Of a stretch of 32,081 nt of DNA, positions 22,060 to 31,612 are shown one piece after another. This DNA is from Minisyncoccota bacterium (GTDB taxonomy: Bacteria; Patescibacteriota; Minisyncoccia; Phycocordibacterales; Phycocordibacteraceae). The position numbers and the translations under genes are program-made. The stretch lies in contig JAQVIY010000001.1 in assembly GCA_028695415.1 (NCBI GenBank), positions 177,067-209,147 of the forward strand, written 5' to 3'. The first letter of the stretch is position 1; every line of letters starts with the position of its first letter. The notes under the pieces were generated by a model, which saw nothing but the letters and a program-made list of their open reading frames with translations, made no database searches and had not been told where the DNA came from.

Positions 22060-22094
22060 AAATAAAAAAGAGCCGCTCGCAACATACGAGCGGC
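22060..22094 (-). terminator. Intrinsic terminator on minus strand
   Basis: Minus strand GCCGCTCG-tatgttg-CGAGCGGC-TCTTTTTTATT. Confidence 0.88.
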
Positions 22095-22114
22095 CCATGA
22101 ATGGTGAATCCAGA

Positions 22115-22450
22115 TCAGGAGATAAGCCTGTCGGCCTGAATTTCGACTCTTACCCCGGCTCGCTCGAAAGCGATCAAGCCCGGCTCAAGGTCAAGCACGT
22201 CGCTCCAACTCGCAATCTTCGGGGTAATTCTACTGCCGTCGATTTTGAGGTAGCCGCGTGCCCTCCATGCGGGAAGGTGATTTCTTGTCATCTGTTCCGG
22301 CATGGTCCGGTAATAGATGCGACGTTCGCCGATGGCCGCGGGTGTACCCGGTGCCGGCGGCGCGAAGTTCAACTGGATGAAGTTCGTCCCCCAGTCTTCG
22401 TCGATACCGGTTGCCTTCAGCTTATAGCGAGCGAGCGAGCGAGCCGACAA
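22115..22450 (-). CDS. Hypothetical ORF (possible out-of-frame 3' part of upstream gene)
   Basis: TTG-start ORF beginning in the GCGA repeat, followed by a minus-strand terminator. Confidence 0.4.
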   Translation of the reverse strand: MSARSLARYKLKATGIDEDWGTNFIQLNFAPPAPGTPAAIGERRIYYRTMPEQMTRNHLPAWRARGYLKIDGSRITPKIASWSDVLDLEPGLIAFERAGVRVEIQADRLIS

Positions 22451-22629
22451 GGTATGTTGCCAGCCTGTTCGTACTCTTTATTGTCCCAGTGCAAATCTGC
22501 GCGATATTGGATTGCACGCATCGGCGCGCGATTCTCCATGACACCCCACTCGAGATGCTTTGGCCACTTCGGGAACATCTTCTGTGTCTTATCAAACGCG
22601 GTCTTGATCGCCTCCTCTTTTTTCTTCAT
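22417..22629 (-). pseudogene. TPR-like fragment in a different frame from the upstream ORF
   Basis: MKKKEEAIKTAFDKTQKMFPKWPKHLEWGVMENRAPMRAIQYRADLHWDNKEYEQ continues the helical repeat of the preceding ORF; ATGA overlap at 22626-22629. Confidence 0.5.
22427..22444. repeat. Tetranucleotide repeat (GCGA)4.5
   Basis: gcgagcgagcgagcgagc at the junction of ORFs 22417-22629 and 22115-22450. Confidence 0.95.
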
Positions 22630-23207
22630 GTCGCCGATACGAGCCCGACATAGGTCTGTATATAATCCTCATCCATCTTAAGCGTCTTCTTGAGTAGCCG
22701 TAACGCTTTCTTCGCGCCTTCCTTACCTTCATCGCACAACTCCATCGCATCGTAATACAAATCATCCTTTTCACACATCATATCGGCGATATATCCTGTC
22801 TCCCTTTTGGCCGTCATCTGCCGCACCACATGCTCCATCACCGCCTCGGCCGCGAACGCGTCCGCGAGCTTCTTCGCATCGCCTCCCTCCCCATTGCGCA
22901 TGAGCTCGCACAGCGCGCATCCGTCACATCCTTTGAACACCTCGCGTATCTCAACGCGAGGGTTCGTCGTCAGCCACTCGCTCACACACTCCCACGCCTG
23001 ATCAGAAATGAATTGGTCCCACGCGTGAATCCAACCGTCCGTCTCCTTCTCCAAGAAATCCTCGAACGCACGCCGGCCGCCTTTCTTGAATGTCTCCTCC
23101 GCGCCAGGCGCTATGCCCGGCCAGAGCTCATGCAGGAAATATCGGACGTTCTCCGCATATTCGGCATCAAGTATTCGTCCATATTCACTTATCTCCTCCA
23201 TCACCAA
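22626..23207 (-). CDS. TPR/helical-repeat protein, N-terminal part, CxxCxxC motif
   Basis: FKGCDGCALCELMRNGE and ...ALRLLKKTLKMDEDYIQTYVGL; overlaps the DUF2130 3' end. Confidence 0.65.
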   Translation of the reverse strand: MVMEEISEYGRILDAEYAENVRYFLHELWPGIAPGAEETFKKGGRRAFEDFLEKETDGWIHAWDQFISDQAWECVSEWLTTNPRVEIREVFKGCDGCALCELMRNGEGGDAKKLADAFAAEAVMEHVVRQMTAKRETGYIADMMCEKDDLYYDAMELCDEGKEGAKKALRLLKKTLKMDEDYIQTYVGLVSAT

Positions 23208-24696
23208 GTTCGAGTGCTTTGATTTGTGGAAGGGTTACCAGTCCACTCAAGTCACCATACATACCGACAGTGTTCGTGATGACTTTTTTGATTTGCTTCT
23301 CTCGTTCGGCCCATATTTTTTCATACGCGAGACGCTCTTTTTTTAATCCATCGTCCATGCTTGCAAAAGCTTCGACAATGGCTTCAACACGCTGGCGGAA
23401 TTCTACGCCCGTTAGATACGAATAGAGGACCTCCATCTTTTCATTTTTCCCCACTGACATTGCACGCTCACGCGTAACAGATTCAAGATTTGTGCGTAAC
23501 GCTGCCGCAAGAGCGCCTGCGAGTTGTACGTCGCAGATCCAGACTCCGTCACGAAATACAAAACCTTTTACGTCTTGCGGTAATGCGGTAGACACTATGA
23601 CTGCAATTTCGGCCTTGACAGCGCGTTGGTCATCCTTGAGCTTTTGTATCCACCCCTCACTCCACGCCTTTGTCCGTTTTGATTCCCAGACAATCTGTCC
23701 ACACTCACGCCCGGAACGGTCTCGGACTTTTTGTGTGATATCTGCCCCCTTAACACCCTTTGGTACTGGTTGAATGTCGTCGAGAGGAAACTCTGTTTGT
23801 AGAAGTTCCTCAAGACTGAGTTCTAAGACCTCGCCCTGCGTCTGTTGAGATCCTTGTTCAAGTTTACGAGCGAGCTCGTCTTTTGCTTTGGTGGCGTCAG
23901 TAAGCTGCTTCTTCAACTGTCCGATGATGTATTGGTGTTCTTCTGCTGCCTTCTTGGCAGCATCTTCTGATATTTTCTTGCGTTCTTCATCAAGTTGACG
24001 CTGCTTCTCCAGCTCGAAACTTTTTCGCTCCTCTTCGAGCTGATTCTTCTCCCTTCGCAACGAAATCTCCATAGTGTGCGCCTCCTGGAGTTTTGCATCT
24101 TTCTCAGCCATCTGTTCCTCTAATAATTTCTTCTCGGCTTCTTTTTCCTTCTCAATATCGTCGATCTGACGTTGCAGCTTCGCAGTATCTTTTTCTACCT
24201 GTCTCGATACCCGAGCAAATGCCTCGTCTTCAATCTTCTTGCGTCCTTCTTCGAGTTTCTTTTCTTTCTCTGCTTCGAAATTTTCCCTCTCTGTTTCCAG
24301 TTTCTTACGCTCGGCGCGAGCCTCTGCCATTTCTGTGTTTGCCTTTGTCAATTTCTCGTCACGTTCTTTTATTTGTGCCTCAAGAAGTTGAAGCTCTGCG
24401 GCTTTTTGTTTATCCGCCTCTGCTTGTGCGTTTTTCCAAAGGGCAACCTTCTCCGAAGCGACCTTCTCTGCTACTTTCTTATTGATTTCCACTTGAGCAT
24501 TCTGCCGTGCTTCGGCAAGCTTCTGTCGCTCTTGTTCAATCTCTTTCTTCTGTCTTTGCAGCTCTGCTTCTTTCGCCCTGCTTTCTGAAGCAAGAGTCTT
24601 TTTGAGCCGCTCTTCGATCTGGTGTGTCAACGCTTCATCGATAGAAATGATCTCGTTGCAATGCGGACACTCAATCTTTTGCTGGTTTTCGTTCAT
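23185..24696 (-). CDS. DUF2130-like coiled-coil protein with N-terminal zinc finger and candidate PD-(D/E)xK region
   Basis: IECPHCNEIISIDEAL, ~250-aa charged coiled coil, GADITQKVRDRSGRECGQIVWESKRTKAWSEGW. Confidence 0.75.
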   Translation of the reverse strand: MNENQQKIECPHCNEIISIDEALTHQIEERLKKTLASESRAKEAELQRQKKEIEQERQKLAEARQNAQVEINKKVAEKVASEKVALWKNAQAEADKQKAAELQLLEAQIKERDEKLTKANTEMAEARAERKKLETERENFEAEKEKKLEEGRKKIEDEAFARVSRQVEKDTAKLQRQIDDIEKEKEAEKKLLEEQMAEKDAKLQEAHTMEISLRREKNQLEEERKSFELEKQRQLDEERKKISEDAAKKAAEEHQYIIGQLKKQLTDATKAKDELARKLEQGSQQTQGEVLELSLEELLQTEFPLDDIQPVPKGVKGADITQKVRDRSGRECGQIVWESKRTKAWSEGWIQKLKDDQRAVKAEIAVIVSTALPQDVKGFVFRDGVWICDVQLAGALAAALRTNLESVTRERAMSVGKNEKMEVLYSYLTGVEFRQRVEAIVEAFASMDDGLKKERLAYEKIWAEREKQIKKVITNTVGMYGDLSGLVTLPQIKALELGDGGDK

Positions 24697-24704
24697 AAAG
24701 AGGA

Positions 24705-24878
24705 TCAATGATATTTCCTCACACCCTTGAAGGGGTGGTTTTTGTCTGATTTCTGGTTGATGAATTTGTTGGTTGTCGTGTCGATCTCGACCCATCGTTC
24801 TGTTTTTGGGTTGTAAACTTGCTTGCGGTTGCGCACCGCACCCACTCTTCCAGGACCTTTTGGAGGATTAGTAGCCAT
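24705..24878 (-). CDS. 57-aa basic protein
   Basis: Not in track (<60 aa): MATNPPKGPGRVGAVRNRKQVYNPKTERWVEIDTTTNKFINQKSDKNHPFKGVRKYH*; fits 1 nt after hsdS and 8 nt before the DUF2130 gene. Confidence 0.75.
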   Translation of the reverse strand: MATNPPKGPGRVGAVRNRKQVYNPKTERWVEIDTTTNKFINQKSDKNHPFKGVRKYH

Positions 24879-24879
24879 A

Positions 24880-26241
24880 TTATTTCGCGTTAGATTCTAT
24901 TAACTCTTCTACCTTACGCTTCGCCTCGTCGAGCAGGCGCTTTGCCTCGGCACGCGCCACATGCGACTCGCGCACCATCTCGGCGATCTTTTGTTGTACC
25001 TTATCTGGCAAAACAGGCACCAACATTTCTTTAATACTCTCTTTCGGCACTGCCGTTAAAATCGTGCCTGCACATCGCTGCTCAAGCTGGTAGCGGAAAA
25101 CGACACTCTTCGCGAGCACGAGCAGTACCTCTGGCAAAATCTCTTTGCTCCTAAACTGGAAGAAGCCCGTGGAGGCAACATGCCCAGATTGTGCCTTATC
25201 AACGAGCGCAACCTTCTCAAGTGAGCCCTCGACGCTTGACACGATGACGTCATTTGCCTTAAGTAAGCGCTTCGCGCGGCTCGGTGTCTCCTTACTCACC
25301 ACCACCGACGCGCCGTCGATAACCCCTATCGGCGCATTAATGTTCGAGAGTTCGACGTAGTTGATCTCTTTATCGGGCTCTTTTGTCGGGTCAAACCGCG
25401 CTGGGACATTCTCAATCACGTCTTCAAGTCGCTTGGCTTTATACGCTCGCAACTTCTCCACCAACTTCTCATATCTCGACTGGAAGTATTCGGCGTCGAT
25501 GCGCCCTGCGGTCTTCACCTCTGACAATTTCGCCACGCTCCACAACTCCCCCGACGCCTTCTCTTCAAAATCCGCCAGCCCCAATTCCTCAAGCAACATC
25601 TCCTCGGCTTGAATATATAGATTCTTTGCGTTTTTGAATGCCTTCTCAGCACGAAGGGTTAAAGCGGCTATTTTTTCTTTTTGGTCGACAGAAATATTAG
25701 GGACTATGAAATTACGGATGTCTTCCAGATGAAGGTCAGGCTGTGAAATACCCTTGGCGGATCTAATCGCTTGAAATCGGCCAAATTTTGAATTTAGAAA
25801 GGTTGAAAGAAAGTACTTGTCGACATCCGATACCCCCTTAAGAACAGCTAAACTAACGAAGATATTAAAACTCGGCGCGCTATCTGGGACAACAGCACTG
25901 ATTCCGACTGACCCCACTTTGGTAAGCAAAATGTCTCCAACAACTGGTTTGCAACTCTTTAGGATCTTGTCAAATTCTCGCGTTATGAATGAAATGTCCC
26001 CATCAAAATTTATTTGTTGCTCTGTGACATCTTTCACCATTAGAAATGGGACTCCGCTTTTTTGATATTCCGGCGTCTGATGAGAGCCATCTGTTACCTT
26101 CGTACATAAATCTCCAAGTCTTTGATAAGATAGTTCCTTGATTTTCTCGACAGCGTCTAGATACTCCGGCTGATAGTATTCCGCATCCAGCCGCTTCGCG
26201 CCTTCGAGTTCTGATCTTTTGATTAACGAGAAAACGACCAT
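24880..26241 (-). CDS. hsdS: Type I-like restriction-modification specificity subunit HsdS
   Basis: Two half repeats (KRLDAEYYQPEYLDAVEKIKELSYQRLGDL / GRIDAEYFQSRYEKLVEKLRAYKAKRLEDV), each with a recognition-domain-like segment. Confidence 0.9.
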   Translation of the reverse strand: MVVFSLIKRSELEGAKRLDAEYYQPEYLDAVEKIKELSYQRLGDLCTKVTDGSHQTPEYQKSGVPFLMVKDVTEQQINFDGDISFITREFDKILKSCKPVVGDILLTKVGSVGISAVVPDSAPSFNIFVSLAVLKGVSDVDKYFLSTFLNSKFGRFQAIRSAKGISQPDLHLEDIRNFIVPNISVDQKEKIAALTLRAEKAFKNAKNLYIQAEEMLLEELGLADFEEKASGELWSVAKLSEVKTAGRIDAEYFQSRYEKLVEKLRAYKAKRLEDVIENVPARFDPTKEPDKEINYVELSNINAPIGVIDGASVVVSKETPSRAKRLLKANDVIVSSVEGSLEKVALVDKAQSGHVASTGFFQFRSKEILPEVLLVLAKSVVFRYQLEQRCAGTILTAVPKESIKEMLVPVLPDKVQQKIAEMVRESHVARAEAKRLLDEAKRKVEELIESNAK

Positions 26242-26243
26242 GA

Positions 26244-27059
26244 TTAGACTTTACTTAATTTGTCTTTGCAATCTTTGCAGTAAATAGAATCGTAAATGGT
26301 CGAGTCAATCGCGTAATCGGGCATAAAGATCTTCCCGCAGCCGGAACATTTCGGACCAACTGAAGATAAAGATAATGCTGAATTAATCCCTAGAACTGAC
26401 GCACCGAATTGATATGGGGAACTCCCAACGAACGGGACACGGCGTCCGTCTATTTGTATTTCCTTAATTTGCTTCTCGAGAACCACGATTTTCTTTTTAA
26501 GCTCATCGATCTTACCTTCGTCTTTCAAAACAGCGAGTTCTTTCCGTTTTTCAAGAATCTCAAGCATGTATGACTGAAGAACCTCTTTTTCTTTCTTGTC
26601 TATTTCAATAGACCTTTCTTGTACCGCTTGAAGTTCGGGGACAACATCTACCCAATCCGCTAGACCTGCAGAAATGTTAAGCATTATGGTTGAAAGATGT
26701 CGATCTGTTTCTTCGAGTGCTTTTTTACCTTCTTTCCCAACATTCTTAAATGAAGCGACCCAAGCTCTAATCTGTACAATTTGCTCACGAATAGCTTCAA
26801 GATTTCTCAACGCTGACCGCCCCTTCTTCTCTAGAACATTTTCTGTAGCGAGATGACTGAAATCGTTTTTTATAAAACTGCCTGCCACTCCTGCAAATAC
26901 ACTCCCTAAGACTGAAAGTAGCGTGGCAAAAAGAGTATTGCTCTTAAAAACGAAAGCGAAGATTAAACTGACTGTCGTCAGAATGATAAAAATAACTGAC
27001 CCTGGTCCGAGGAACACCCCTAAAAATCTGCACCAATCATTTTTTAAATTTTGCCACAT
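26244..27059 (-). CDS. Membrane / coiled-coil / zinc-ribbon protein of unknown function in the R-M operon
   Basis: Two N-terminal hydrophobic segments, coiled coil, C-terminal CSGCGKIFMPD...YCKDCKDKLSKV. Confidence 0.8.
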   Translation of the reverse strand: MWQNLKNDWCRFLGVFLGPGSVIFIILTTVSLIFAFVFKSNTLFATLLSVLGSVFAGVAGSFIKNDFSHLATENVLEKKGRSALRNLEAIREQIVQIRAWVASFKNVGKEGKKALEETDRHLSTIMLNISAGLADWVDVVPELQAVQERSIEIDKKEKEVLQSYMLEILEKRKELAVLKDEGKIDELKKKIVVLEKQIKEIQIDGRRVPFVGSSPYQFGASVLGINSALSLSSVGPKCSGCGKIFMPDYAIDSTIYDSIYCKDCKDKLSKV

Positions 27060-27060
27060 G

Positions 27061-29013
27061 TTATTTGAGAGGTTTATCTTTAATAAACCTCAAATACCCC
27101 TCCGCGATGTCGTCGAGGTCGGTGTCGAGGACTTTGCGACCCTTGGTGTCGTGCGCATAATTGCCGCTCGCATCCTTCTTATAGACATAGTCGCCCGAGT
27201 TGTCCTTGCCCGCCTTCTTTGAGACTGCCATGAAGATCGGATAATCCGCCTCTGGCTCACCCGCCTCGCCTCCCCACTTCTCTAAGAAAAGGACACTCGT
27301 TTTGGTGCCGGTGTGCGGCTTGAAAGTGTTGCCGTGGAGCCCGACCACCGCCTTGATGCGCGCCTTATCGAAGAGATAGTCGCGCACATACTCCATGTTG
27401 GTGTTGTTGAGGACCCCCTGCGGGAGGACGATCGCCATCCGCCCGCCGGGGCGGAGCATGTCGAGCGTGCGCTCGATAAAGAGGATGTGCCGCTCGATCT
27501 TGCCGACCAACTTCCCCTTCTTCTTGCCAAAGAGGTATTGCCGCAGGAGGCCTTGATCCTTGATCTCGCCGGCAAAGGGCGGGTTGGTGAGGATAACGTC
27601 GAAGTTGAAATAATGAAAGGTCTTTTTATTCTCGGCGTCGTCGGCGGTGGTCGCCTGTGGTGCAAGCTTGCCTTGGAGCTTAGCGCGTGCGTCGAGAAGC
27701 TGGGGCGTCTCGCCCTGCCACTCGCGCGGGTCGAGCGAGTTTAGTTTGAAGAGGTGCGAGCGGCCGTCGCCCGCGATGAGCATGAGTGCGCGCGAGACCT
27801 TGGACACTTCATCGGCAAAGTCGATCCCCCAGAGATGCTCGCGTGCATATTCCTGCATTGCGGTGTCAGAGCCGCCGAGGTGCGTATCGCGGACGTAGTG
27901 CATCGCGCCCACCAAGAAGCCGCCCGAGCCCGCAGCCGGGTCGAGCACGTCTTCGCCCTCCTTTGGGTTGAGCATCTTCACCGCCATGCGGATCACGTGC
28001 CGCGGGGTGAAGTATTGTCCCTTTGCTCCGCGCGAGACCTCGGCGATCAGATGCTCGAATGCTTCGTCGACGATCGATAGGTCAGAGCCGAAGAGACGCG
28101 CCTTCTCGAGCTCGCCGACCACGACCGAGAGATGTTCCTGTGAGAGGTCAATGTTTTCTTGATCAAAGAAGGTGCCGGGCCACTTCTTGATCGACTTCTT
28201 GAAGAGGTCGTTGATGACGGCGTAGGTCTTGGCTGGGTCGCGATACTTGCGGAAATGCACCTCCTTATCAGGGCGCGTGGTGCGCGCCTCTTGCTCGTCA
28301 TAGAGCTTGGCGTAGATGAGCTTGAACACTTCGTTAAAGACGTTCCCGCCCGCGTTGGCGAGGACGAGCTCCTCCATCGTAGTGATGAGATCCTTCAGGT
28401 CGACATCGGTGCGCGTATATTCAAAATACGTCTTCTTCTCTTCAAGGAGATCATCGATAGTCTTATTGGCGGCGGGCAGCTCGGGGAGCGTGTCGTCGAA
28501 CTCCTTCGGATAGGGACGATAGAGGATGATGCGCTTCGCGCCGTTGCTCCACACGCCGATCTCCGACCCTTCGGCATTCAAATATCCCTTGAGCTGCTCG
28601 ATGCCCTTGCTCTCGGTCGGCGCCTTCACCTCGACGAGGATATACGGGGTGATCTTGTCGGGCTTGTACACGACAATGTCGACGGCCTTTGCATGAATCT
28701 CGCGCCCGAAATGCACACTCTTCTCGGTATCGATGCGATCCATTGGATAACCGTAGTGCACATTGAGTTTGTGTAGCCAGAGCTGGCGGACGATCTCTTC
28801 AGGACGGCTGGTGCCCTTCTTCTCGTCATACACGAAACGTGGCTTGGCTGATTTTAAATCCTTAAGGTAGTAGCGGCCGGGTTCATCTTCAGTAATCTCA
28901 AGCACTATGTATACATCCAGACCTTCAAACTCTTTCAAGCCGAAAGTTGCATCAGCATCTTTAAAAATCTTACCGATGACTTCTTCTGCGCGATTTGGTT
29001 TCTTTGTTGCCAT
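27061..29013 (-). CDS. HSDR_N-type nuclease domain fused to N6-adenine methyltransferase (HsdM-like)
   Basis: N-term VDIVVY...YILVEVKAP (D112...E128-x-K130); SAM motif DVLDPAAGSGGF; NPPF motif VILTNPPFAGE. Confidence 0.88.
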   Translation of the reverse strand: MATKKPNRAEEVIGKIFKDADATFGLKEFEGLDVYIVLEITEDEPGRYYLKDLKSAKPRFVYDEKKGTSRPEEIVRQLWLHKLNVHYGYPMDRIDTEKSVHFGREIHAKAVDIVVYKPDKITPYILVEVKAPTESKGIEQLKGYLNAEGSEIGVWSNGAKRIILYRPYPKEFDDTLPELPAANKTIDDLLEEKKTYFEYTRTDVDLKDLITTMEELVLANAGGNVFNEVFKLIYAKLYDEQEARTTRPDKEVHFRKYRDPAKTYAVINDLFKKSIKKWPGTFFDQENIDLSQEHLSVVVGELEKARLFGSDLSIVDEAFEHLIAEVSRGAKGQYFTPRHVIRMAVKMLNPKEGEDVLDPAAGSGGFLVGAMHYVRDTHLGGSDTAMQEYAREHLWGIDFADEVSKVSRALMLIAGDGRSHLFKLNSLDPREWQGETPQLLDARAKLQGKLAPQATTADDAENKKTFHYFNFDVILTNPPFAGEIKDQGLLRQYLFGKKKGKLVGKIERHILFIERTLDMLRPGGRMAIVLPQGVLNNTNMEYVRDYLFDKARIKAVVGLHGNTFKPHTGTKTSVLFLEKWGGEAGEPEADYPIFMAVSKKAGKDNSGDYVYKKDASGNYAHDTKGRKVLDTDLDDIAEGYLRFIKDKPLK

Positions 29014-29017
29014 AGTG

Positions 29018-29653
29018 TTATGCGATAGCTTGCCACTGACTCCCTTTAAGGACTGATACCACCTTGCCCTTGAGGATTGTCTCGTCGGTAAAGAGGATAT
29101 TTTGATATTTTGGATTCTCTGGTTTGAGGTACACGTACGGCGGTTTATCTTCAGAGATAAAACGCTTCACGGTGCCTTCATCGCCGATTTCGGCGTATAC
29201 GATATCGCCAGAGATAAATTCTTTTTTGGTCTGGACGAGGATTGCGTCGCCATCGTCAATGCCGGCATTCACCATCGAATCGCCGGCGATCTTAAGCATG
29301 AACATTTCTTCAACAAGTCTTGAAACCTCGTTCGACAAGGTGCGCCACTCTCCCGAAACGCGAATTGCCTCAGCGGGGAGGCCTGCGGTCGTCGTCCCGA
29401 GCATGGGAGCGAGTGGTGGCCGACCGATCGTCTGATAGCCGAGGTTGGTGATGGCGATACTGCGCGCGCCGGGCTCTTTCTTTACACAACCACCCTTGCG
29501 GAGTTTCTCGAGAAGATCAGTGACTGATTGATTAGAGGCCACGCCGAGATTTTCTCGCATCTCCTCAAACGTCGGCGGGAATCCGCTATTGGTCATGAAA
29601 TCGTATATGACCTGTAGAAGCTCTTTTTGCCTTTCAGTTACGCCATTTTTCAT
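29018..29653 (-). CDS. lexA: LexA repressor
   Basis: Winged-helix N-term TERQKELLQVIYDFMTNSGFPPTFEEM; Ala-Gly cleavage site TTAGLPAEAI; GDSMVNAGIDDGD Ser; GTVKRF Lys. Confidence 0.93.
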   Translation of the reverse strand: MKNGVTERQKELLQVIYDFMTNSGFPPTFEEMRENLGVASNQSVTDLLEKLRKGGCVKKEPGARSIAITNLGYQTIGRPPLAPMLGTTTAGLPAEAIRVSGEWRTLSNEVSRLVEEMFMLKIAGDSMVNAGIDDGDAILVQTKKEFISGDIVYAEIGDEGTVKRFISEDKPPYVYLKPENPKYQNILFTDETILKGKVVSVLKGSQWQAIA

Positions 29654-29788
29654 CAAGTATAGTGTACCCGACTATTTATACAGGTATCTAGTATGTATCT
29701 GTTGATAACTAGCCAGACCAGCAAATCGGTCTTATCTTAAGAACCGCAGGTAGAAGGGAGAGTATGGACAGGCACGATTTTGTTCTTG

Positions 29789-30212: not shown

Positions 30213-30430
30213 GCCAAACCAAGGTTGGTCTTAGCCAAGCACTTCGCCATGCATCAGGCGAATCCATTGGCACGTCAGCTGACCGTTTTGGATGTTAGCT
30301 TCCTTCGGGCAAAGGCCTCAAATAGGTTTATCCACTCCAGTGGCCGGTTTGCCTGATCGGGTGAATTCTATTCAAAATGCCGTTCGGGGTACCCGGCGGT
30401 TTTTTCGTTCCGGCCGATAACCAAAAAACC

Positions 30431-31612
30431 ATGAATACCAACGTATTAAGTTATGCCGAGTACCAGAGAAAAGTTAAAGGTCTAAAGACTCCGGAGGACG
30501 TCGCAGCGTTCGCCCAAGAGCTGCTCGCCCCCGTGCTCTCAACTGGAGATAGAAATGAGGAAAGCGAGGACGAGCGAAAGGATACCAGGAGTGCCCCTCC
30601 TGCGGAGATTACGCGAAAGCGCGTACACCTGCCAAAGGACAAGATGCACGCGCTTCGAAGCATTGCGTCTTCCGAGGTCGGAGTGTTCAGCCCGTGGTTC
30701 GATGTCGTTGGAAGCGACACCGAGGCTATGGTCATAAGCCTGTACGCAAAAGGACTTACCACCCGTGACATCTCGAACTACCTGAAAAATATGCACGGCA
30801 TTGAAATCGCGCAGCCGTCGATCTCGGCGATCACCGACAAAGTGTTTCCGCTGGTGAAAGAATGGCAGTCGCGCTCACTCTCGTCGTGCTACCCGGTAGT
30901 ATACCTCGACGGCCTGCACTTCAAGGTGCGCGACGCAGGTAAGATCGCTTCAAAGGTCGCATACATCGTTCTTGGTATCAACCAGTACGGACAGAAAGAA
31001 GTGCTGGGCATTTGGGTCAGTGAATCCGAAGGCTCAAAGTTCTGGATGCATGTTCTCAACGACCTCAAGAACCGAGGCGTCGATGACATTCTGATCGCAT
31101 GTGTCGACGGCCTCAAGGGATTCCCAGAGGCAATCAAAGCGATTTATCCGCACACAGACGTGCAGGTCTGCATTACACACCAGATCAGGCACACCATCAT
31201 GTTCATCCCGCACAAGGATAAAAAGCAATTCTGCGACGAGCTGAAAACAATCTACATTGCTCCGACCGAGGAAGCAGGATTGGAAGCTCTGAAGCAGATG
31301 ATGGAACGGTGGCCGCAGTACCGCTCTTACCTCAAGAGCTGGGAGACCCGATGGATTGACCTTGCGCCGTTCTTCAATTATCCGCAGCCGATCCGCAAGA
31401 TGGTGTACACCACAAACGCTATCGAGAATCTCAACAGGCAATTCCGCAAGGTGACCAAGACAACTACCATCTTCCCTCACGATGACGCGCTTATAAAGCT
31501 CCTGTGGCTCGCGCAAGCGGACATCACGCAGGGATGGGTGCTTACCACCAGGAATTGGGGCGAGGTGTTGGCACAGCTCAACATCCTCTTCCCGGATCGT
31601 GTTCACTTCTAA
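30431..31612 (+). CDS. IS256-family (mutator-type) transposase
   Basis: YPVVYLDGLHFKVRD, ILIACVDGLKGFPEAI, CITHQIRHT, YTTNAIENLNRQFRK; DDE residues present. Start placed at MNTNVLSY. Confidence 0.92.
   Translation: MNTNVLSYAEYQRKVKGLKTPEDVAAFAQELLAPVLSTGDRNEESEDERKDTRSAPPAEITRKRVHLPKDKMHALRSIASSEVGVFSPWFDVVGSDTEAMVISLYAKGLTTRDISNYLKNMHGIEIAQPSISAITDKVFPLVKEWQSRSLSSCYPVVYLDGLHFKVRDAGKIASKVAYIVLGINQYGQKEVLGIWVSESEGSKFWMHVLNDLKNRGVDDILIACVDGLKGFPEAIKAIYPHTDVQVCITHQIRHTIMFIPHKDKKQFCDELKTIYIAPTEEAGLEALKQMMERWPQYRSYLKSWETRWIDLAPFFNYPQPIRKMVYTTNAIENLNRQFRKVTKTTTIFPHDDALIKLLWLAQADITQGWVLTTRNWGEVLAQLNILFPDRVHF

Follow-up and report, generated by a model that had tools for sequence, protein, structure and literature searches.

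A LexA-headed, type IIB-like restriction-modification operon and LexA-methyltransferase fusions in Patescibacteria

Introduction

Every host of a restriction-modification (R-M) system faces the problem that self-cutting must stop when methylation lags, and the known regulators of such systems set timing or dosage. Why, then, should an R-M operon be headed by lexA? The question is raised by a run of seven genes in a Minisyncoccota bacterium (Phycocordibacteraceae; GCA_028695415.1), located on a stretch of 32,081 nt (JAQVIY010000001.1:177,067-209,147) that we call the window and whose coordinates are used throughout. On the minus strand, lexA is followed by genes for a fused nuclease and methyltransferase (RM), a membrane protein, an HsdS-type specificity subunit (S) and three further proteins.

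A first-pass annotation of the window had tied these R-M genes to DNA damage through LexA. The comparative side of that proposal proved strong, resting on a gene pair kept in a congener, on LexA-methyltransferase fusions and on promoter repeats. The sequence itself shows how the genes are ordered, which domains and catalytic residues they encode, the promoter repeats, the recurrence in relatives and a recA gene; DNA binding, RecA-driven cleavage, induction by damage and restriction are what we infer from it. We consider it likely that a dedicated, auto-cleavable LexA controls the operon, repressing it until DNA breaks bring release.

Results

The first gene of the run, lexA (29018..29656, minus strand), starts with TTG and has an ATG 3 nt downstream. 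The earlier description of its product as an apparently bona fide LexA was confirmed: the protein is complete, scores 137 bits against a cut-off of 111 for TIGR00498, and contains LexA_DNA_bind (PF01726) and Peptidase_S24 (PF00717) domains. The cleavage site A91-G92 and the catalytic residues S127 and K164 do not vary when the protein is aligned with eight other LexA sequences, fusions included.

The next gene (27061..29013, minus strand) encodes a 650-aa fusion of a nuclease and an N6-adenine methyltransferase (Pfam matches HSDR_N_2 and N6_Mtase), with the methyltransferase motifs DPAAGSGG at 358 and NPPF at 477 and a nuclease of the PD-(D/E)XK type. Its closest solved relative is RM.BsaXI (8w0p, E 4e-33). 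Four nuclease residues of BsaXI (E73, D90, E105 and K107) are reported to be catalytic, essential and conserved across the type IIB family (PMC11997821), and they align with E97, D112, E128 and K130 of the window protein, the residues having been confirmed by script. The HsdS-type subunit (24880..26241, minus strand; PF01420, E 1e-6) consists of two self-similar halves that resemble target recognition domains (TRDs), each matched by S-subunit models, and the MAD5 model matched it over its full length with a score under the cut-off. Judged by these sequence features, the locus is a type IIB-like R-M system, composed of a nuclease-methyltransferase RM subunit and a separate two-TRD S subunit.

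Because RM plus S is the type IIB layout, in which a motor is not needed, the missing HsdR is no anomaly. A type I system would have an HsdR motor gene beside its M and S genes, and no HsdR is encoded in the operon. The first-pass statement that no HsdR motor is visible thus holds for the operon but not for the genome, whose sole hsdR match is complete and lies on contig C11. Its neighbours there are an hsdS of its own and the end part of an hsdM. Of the counter-case named in the first-pass annotation, a normal hsdR elsewhere that works with the window HsdS, only half thus applies.

Searches with LexA showed that its association with methyltransferases extends well beyond the window. Approximately 40 other loci in Patescibacteria (L165-L184, L116, L301-L321 and L218) encode a complete LexA, with cleavage site and Ser-Lys dyad, fused to a methyltransferase. 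Among 148 relatives, many LexA matches were located within frames of 500-635 aa, and among 397 genomes of the order, most of the approximately 45 best matches lay in frames of 436-909 aa. All 21 fusion open reading frames (ORFs) scanned from the first search matched LexA_DNA_bind and Peptidase_S24, and their methylase domains comprised N6_N4, D12, C5 and N6_Mtase/Eco57I, type I-like ones included. For 18 further fusions from the order, the S24 domain was found in 18 and LexA_DNA_bind in 17, with methylase families across the set. Most of the first 21 fusions have an opposite-strand ORF touching their 3' end. A Pfam scan of 20 such convergent partners, often type II restriction endonucleases, identified the families TaqI (4), MvaI/BcnI, MamI and NgoFVII (2 each), and EcoRV, HindIII, BglII, BsaWI and MutH (1 each); several partners had no match, and that of L184 is itself a methylase.

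When plasmid and phage records, again a limited sample, were searched with the fusion of L165, none covered 80% of the protein, although its methylase half alone was matched at approximately 63% identity. One IMG/VR contig carries a LexA-methylase fusion together with a convergent partner. Fifty genomes from other phyla, also a limited sample, gave no above-cut-off LexA match in any frame exceeding 362 aa, and open-access full-text papers yielded no account of natural LexA-methyltransferase fusions.

Two other arrangements were seen. At L185:5306-7615, L187:4491-5807 and L188:3148-5169, a Schlafen group 3 helicase domain is fused to a C-terminal S24 peptidase, and at L190 (3328-4683 and 4990-5616) lexA adjoins a SMODS/AGS_C nucleotidyltransferase of the CBASS type.

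The pairing of an unfused lexA with an R-M gene also recurs. The closest homologue of the window locus, contig L113 of the same genus, has lexA (71% identity) and, after it, the same RM gene (76%), truncated by the contig end. The run is thus not without conserved order among relatives, although what is kept is the lexA-RM pair and not the whole arrangement. In L198 and L199 an unfused lexA precedes a methylase, with a TdeIII nuclease third in L198. The pairs that recur elsewhere are lexA-RM, RM-HsdS and HsdS-S38 only, the last of these involving the 57-aa protein described below. A search for RM homologues in IMG/VR gave no match to the pattern.

Upstream of the window lexA lies a putative LexA operator, the direct repeat AGATAC-N5-AGATAC with a period of 11 (29684..29700, minus strand), followed by CTG and a -10-like TATAAA (29680-29675). 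The architecture is the same as that of the fusion promoters, and in a genome-wide scan the exact pattern occurred once, at lexA. Because a promoter consensus scan performed no better than on shuffled sequences, the -10 box was placed by eye. We scored perfect 6-mer direct repeats at every period in the last 80 nt upstream of a gene, choices of length, word size and period that were made after seeing the promoters, so that a second set served as a check. In the first set (n=23: 20 fusion genes, the window lexA, L113 and L117), period 11 was found in 16 promoters, compared with 0.63 expected and a maximum of 3 in 100 dinucleotide shuffles, and other periods in 0-2. In the second set (n=20: 17 fusions, L198, L199 and L218), period 11 was found in 15 and other periods in 0-3. 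For stand-alone LexA genes the corresponding numbers were 7 of 32 and 0-3. Where an unfused lexA heads a methylase, the repeat was present in three of four cases (the window, L198 and L199), with a different sequence in each. In the fusion promoters the repeat is typically TTTC(T/G)(A/G) and usually adjoins a TATAAT-like -10 box.

Also upstream of lexA, the 9-mer TTATCAACA (29700..29708, minus strand) resembles a DnaA box, with one mismatch to TTATCCACA. Exact copies of TGTGGATAA/TTATCCACA, the DnaA-box sequence, are found upstream of 22 of 41 LexA or LexA-methyltransferase genes, and copies with at most one mismatch upstream of 33. Exact sites numbered 47 in 560 kb, where 5.9 would be expected, although overlapping loci contributed some of them twice. 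This 9-mer is present at other promoters too and may be a general element.

The transcription unit is as compact as the first-pass annotation had described. ORF starts were set partly by rule, and E-values and cut-offs are those given by the tools. From lexA to the last gene, intergenic gaps measure 1-8 nt: 4 nt between lexA and RM, 1 between RM and the membrane protein gene, 2 between the latter and HsdS, 1 between HsdS and the 57-aa protein gene, and 8 between this and the DUF2130 gene. The overlap proposed between the DUF2130 gene and its TPR-like neighbour holds only if an upstream TTG is used; with the ATG at 23182, the second ORF begins 2 nt past the DUF2130 stop. The run is closed by an intrinsic terminator (22070..22096, minus strand), as proposed, consisting of a 12-bp stem and a T run; it folds at -21.8 kcal/mol (z -4.9), and none of 200 shuffles folded equally well. 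An IS256-family transposase is encoded on the opposite strand upstream of the operon (30377-31612). A repeat search around the island gave only weak short matches, and we claim no element ends.

The domain calls of the first-pass gene list held for the remaining genes, with two amendments. Downstream of the TPR-like ORF and ahead of the terminator are two extra small ORFs (22629-22417 and 22450-22115). The second amendment concerns the TPR-like gene itself (22417..23182, minus strand), which is split into a 193-aa ORF and the 70-aa ORF at 22629-22417 in a different frame. Because the 70-aa ORF continues the homologue in L066, which is one intact 366-aa protein, the window gene is probably broken, as far as its reading frames indicate. 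The membrane protein (26244..27059, minus strand) has N-terminal hydrophobic segments, a coiled coil and a C-terminal CxxC...CxxC, and profile searches matched it to no family.

The 57-aa basic protein (24705..24878, minus strand) matches the PADLOC candidate PDC-S38 (PDLC05010, E 9.5e-24). S38 is conserved at 54-71% identity in 80 loci (L033-L112), which span many phyla and have diverse gene surroundings; within Patescibacteria it is rare (8 of 380). The order HsdS then S38 seen in the window is repeated in L033, and in L177 S38 adjoins a LexA-methylase fusion. HsdS/M/R-like clusters are near it in 9-12 of the 80 loci, a proportion for which we rejected a strict R-M partnership as too strong. 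It was modelled as a three-stranded sheet (pLDDT 68), and a fold search gave no match with E < 0.6.

The DUF2130 protein (23185..24696, minus strand; PF09903, E 1e-65) has a CxxC-containing N-terminus, a long coiled coil and a DUF2130 domain with D319 and E338-x-K340, which are invariant in an alignment of five homologues. These residues would fit a PD-(D/E)XK nuclease. The nuclease-like domain was modelled at an unreliable pLDDT of < 50, and we make no fold claim. No PDB relative was found by sequence, and of the DUF2130 homologues in IMG/VR none was confirmed.

Discussion

How would such an operon be controlled? In an undamaged cell, LexA would sit on the 11-bp-period repeat beside the -10 box and keep the operon low and, as the product of the first gene, would act as autorepressor of the R-M operon. 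Breaks arising from phage attack, from damage or from R-M cutting of an under-methylated chromosome would produce RecA filaments, for which the genome carries recA. On these filaments LexA would cut itself at A91-G92, the operon would be derepressed, and RM and S would rise together. In the fusions, the methylase would repress its own gene, so that repression and relief would be built into the modifying enzyme, and the likeliest benefit would be more methylase while the chromosome is being cut.

Several observations weigh against this model. The complete seven-gene order was seen in the window only and in none of the relatives compared, and L114 and L115 encode close RM homologues without an adjoining lexA. 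Because of these two loci, LexA appears as an add-on that the RM+S pair does not require. A period-11 repeat arises by chance in approximately 3% of single shuffled 80-nt stretches, and the AGATAC repeat of the window is not the sequence repeated at the fusion promoters (TTTCKR). The lexA promoter of L113 has no period-11 repeat and carries the palindrome GACCATATGGTC in its place. Finally, the 15 of 20 promoters in the second set were counted without shuffles of their own, and this set includes close relatives.

A different explanation is that the LexA part is a mere autorepressor that sets methylase dosage, with a protease that is irrelevant or not driven by RecA. Some methylases autoregulate through helix-turn-helix (HTH) ends, and autoregulation alone would account for both the promoter repeats and the fusion to methylases. 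In addition, LexA-like autocleavage independent of RecA exists in IrvR (PMC7101444). Dosage control alone, however, would not require a cleavage site and Ser-Lys dyad that are invariant across the fusions and the window LexA, and we regard this explanation as unlikely.

The window lexA could also be the ordinary SOS master repressor of the cell, behind which the R-M genes are merely parked. Its score above the lexA equivalog cut-off and the LexA matches in 330 of 380 genomes of the phylum sample would agree with that. However, any LexA match was found in only 74 of the 148 relatives, the best matches in the order are mostly methylase fusions, and the genome contains a single exact copy of the operator-like repeat. 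Moreover, the genome has a second LexA gene, on contig C8 and 29% identical to the window LexA, although it lies in a prophage-like setting, with apparent methylase and terminase ORFs as neighbours (L117:5590-10839). On this evidence the window LexA is probably a dedicated regulator and not the general SOS repressor, and the role of master repressor is improbable. It is likewise improbable that the operon belongs to MADS, or to another multi-gene type of defence, in which the DUF2130, S38 and membrane proteins would serve as effectors. The matches of RM to MAD2 and of S to MAD5 do extend over most of each protein, and S38 is a PADLOC candidate found near HsdR/M/S-like clusters in the minority of loci given above, but the scores fall far under the cut-offs (302 vs 720 bits for MAD2, 145 vs 400 bits for MAD5), and no remaining mad gene was matched in the scan, which covered ten window proteins and not the remainder of the genome.

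Beyond control of the window operon by a dedicated LexA, we tentatively raise a broader possibility, to which we give somewhat less than even weight: that, in a distinct class of R-M system, Patescibacteria use a self-cleaving LexA, placed ahead of a methyltransferase or joined to it, to sense RecA filaments at breaks, those of the system's own making included, and to raise methylation as a guard against self-restriction. If this were true, a repressor destroyed by the break signal would be physically part of the methylase and would close the loop of self-protection directly. Across Patescibacteria, the pattern involves several kinds of methylase chemistry and many families of nuclease, which suggests an undescribed wiring of defence to breaks. 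SOS activation is not required for plasmid-induced alleviation of EcoKI restriction in Escherichia coli (PMC11109961), and the proposed guard is therefore not a restatement of that phenomenon.

The system can be compared with several known ones. Like the type IIB enzymes BcgI and BsaXI, a class that cleaves DNA on either side of a bipartite site, it combines a nuclease-methylase chain that has all four catalytic residues with a separate S subunit of two TRDs, and it has no motor; unlike them, it is headed by lexA, its fusion has 650 instead of 916 aa, and it includes extra S38, DUF2130 and membrane protein genes. It shares with MADS the resemblance of RM and S to MAD2 and MAD5, whereas the window proteins fall below both cut-offs and no further component was matched among those scanned. 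The expression of R-M genes is known to be controlled by controller (C) proteins and by autoregulating methylases, and here too the R-M genes come with a small DNA-binding module that would set expression. In contrast to these regulators, the LexA module is a putative damage-cleavable protease-repressor and is fused to several unrelated methylase families. With the LexA/S24 repressors of the SOS response, the window LexA shares an HTH plus S24 architecture, the A-G site and the Ser-Lys dyad. The fusion promoters carry direct repeats of the TTTC-N7-TTTC type that resemble the alphaproteobacterial LexA box, GTTC-N7-GTTC. What sets these LexA proteins apart is that, by operon or by fusion, they are tied to R-M methyltransferases and not to DNA repair genes.

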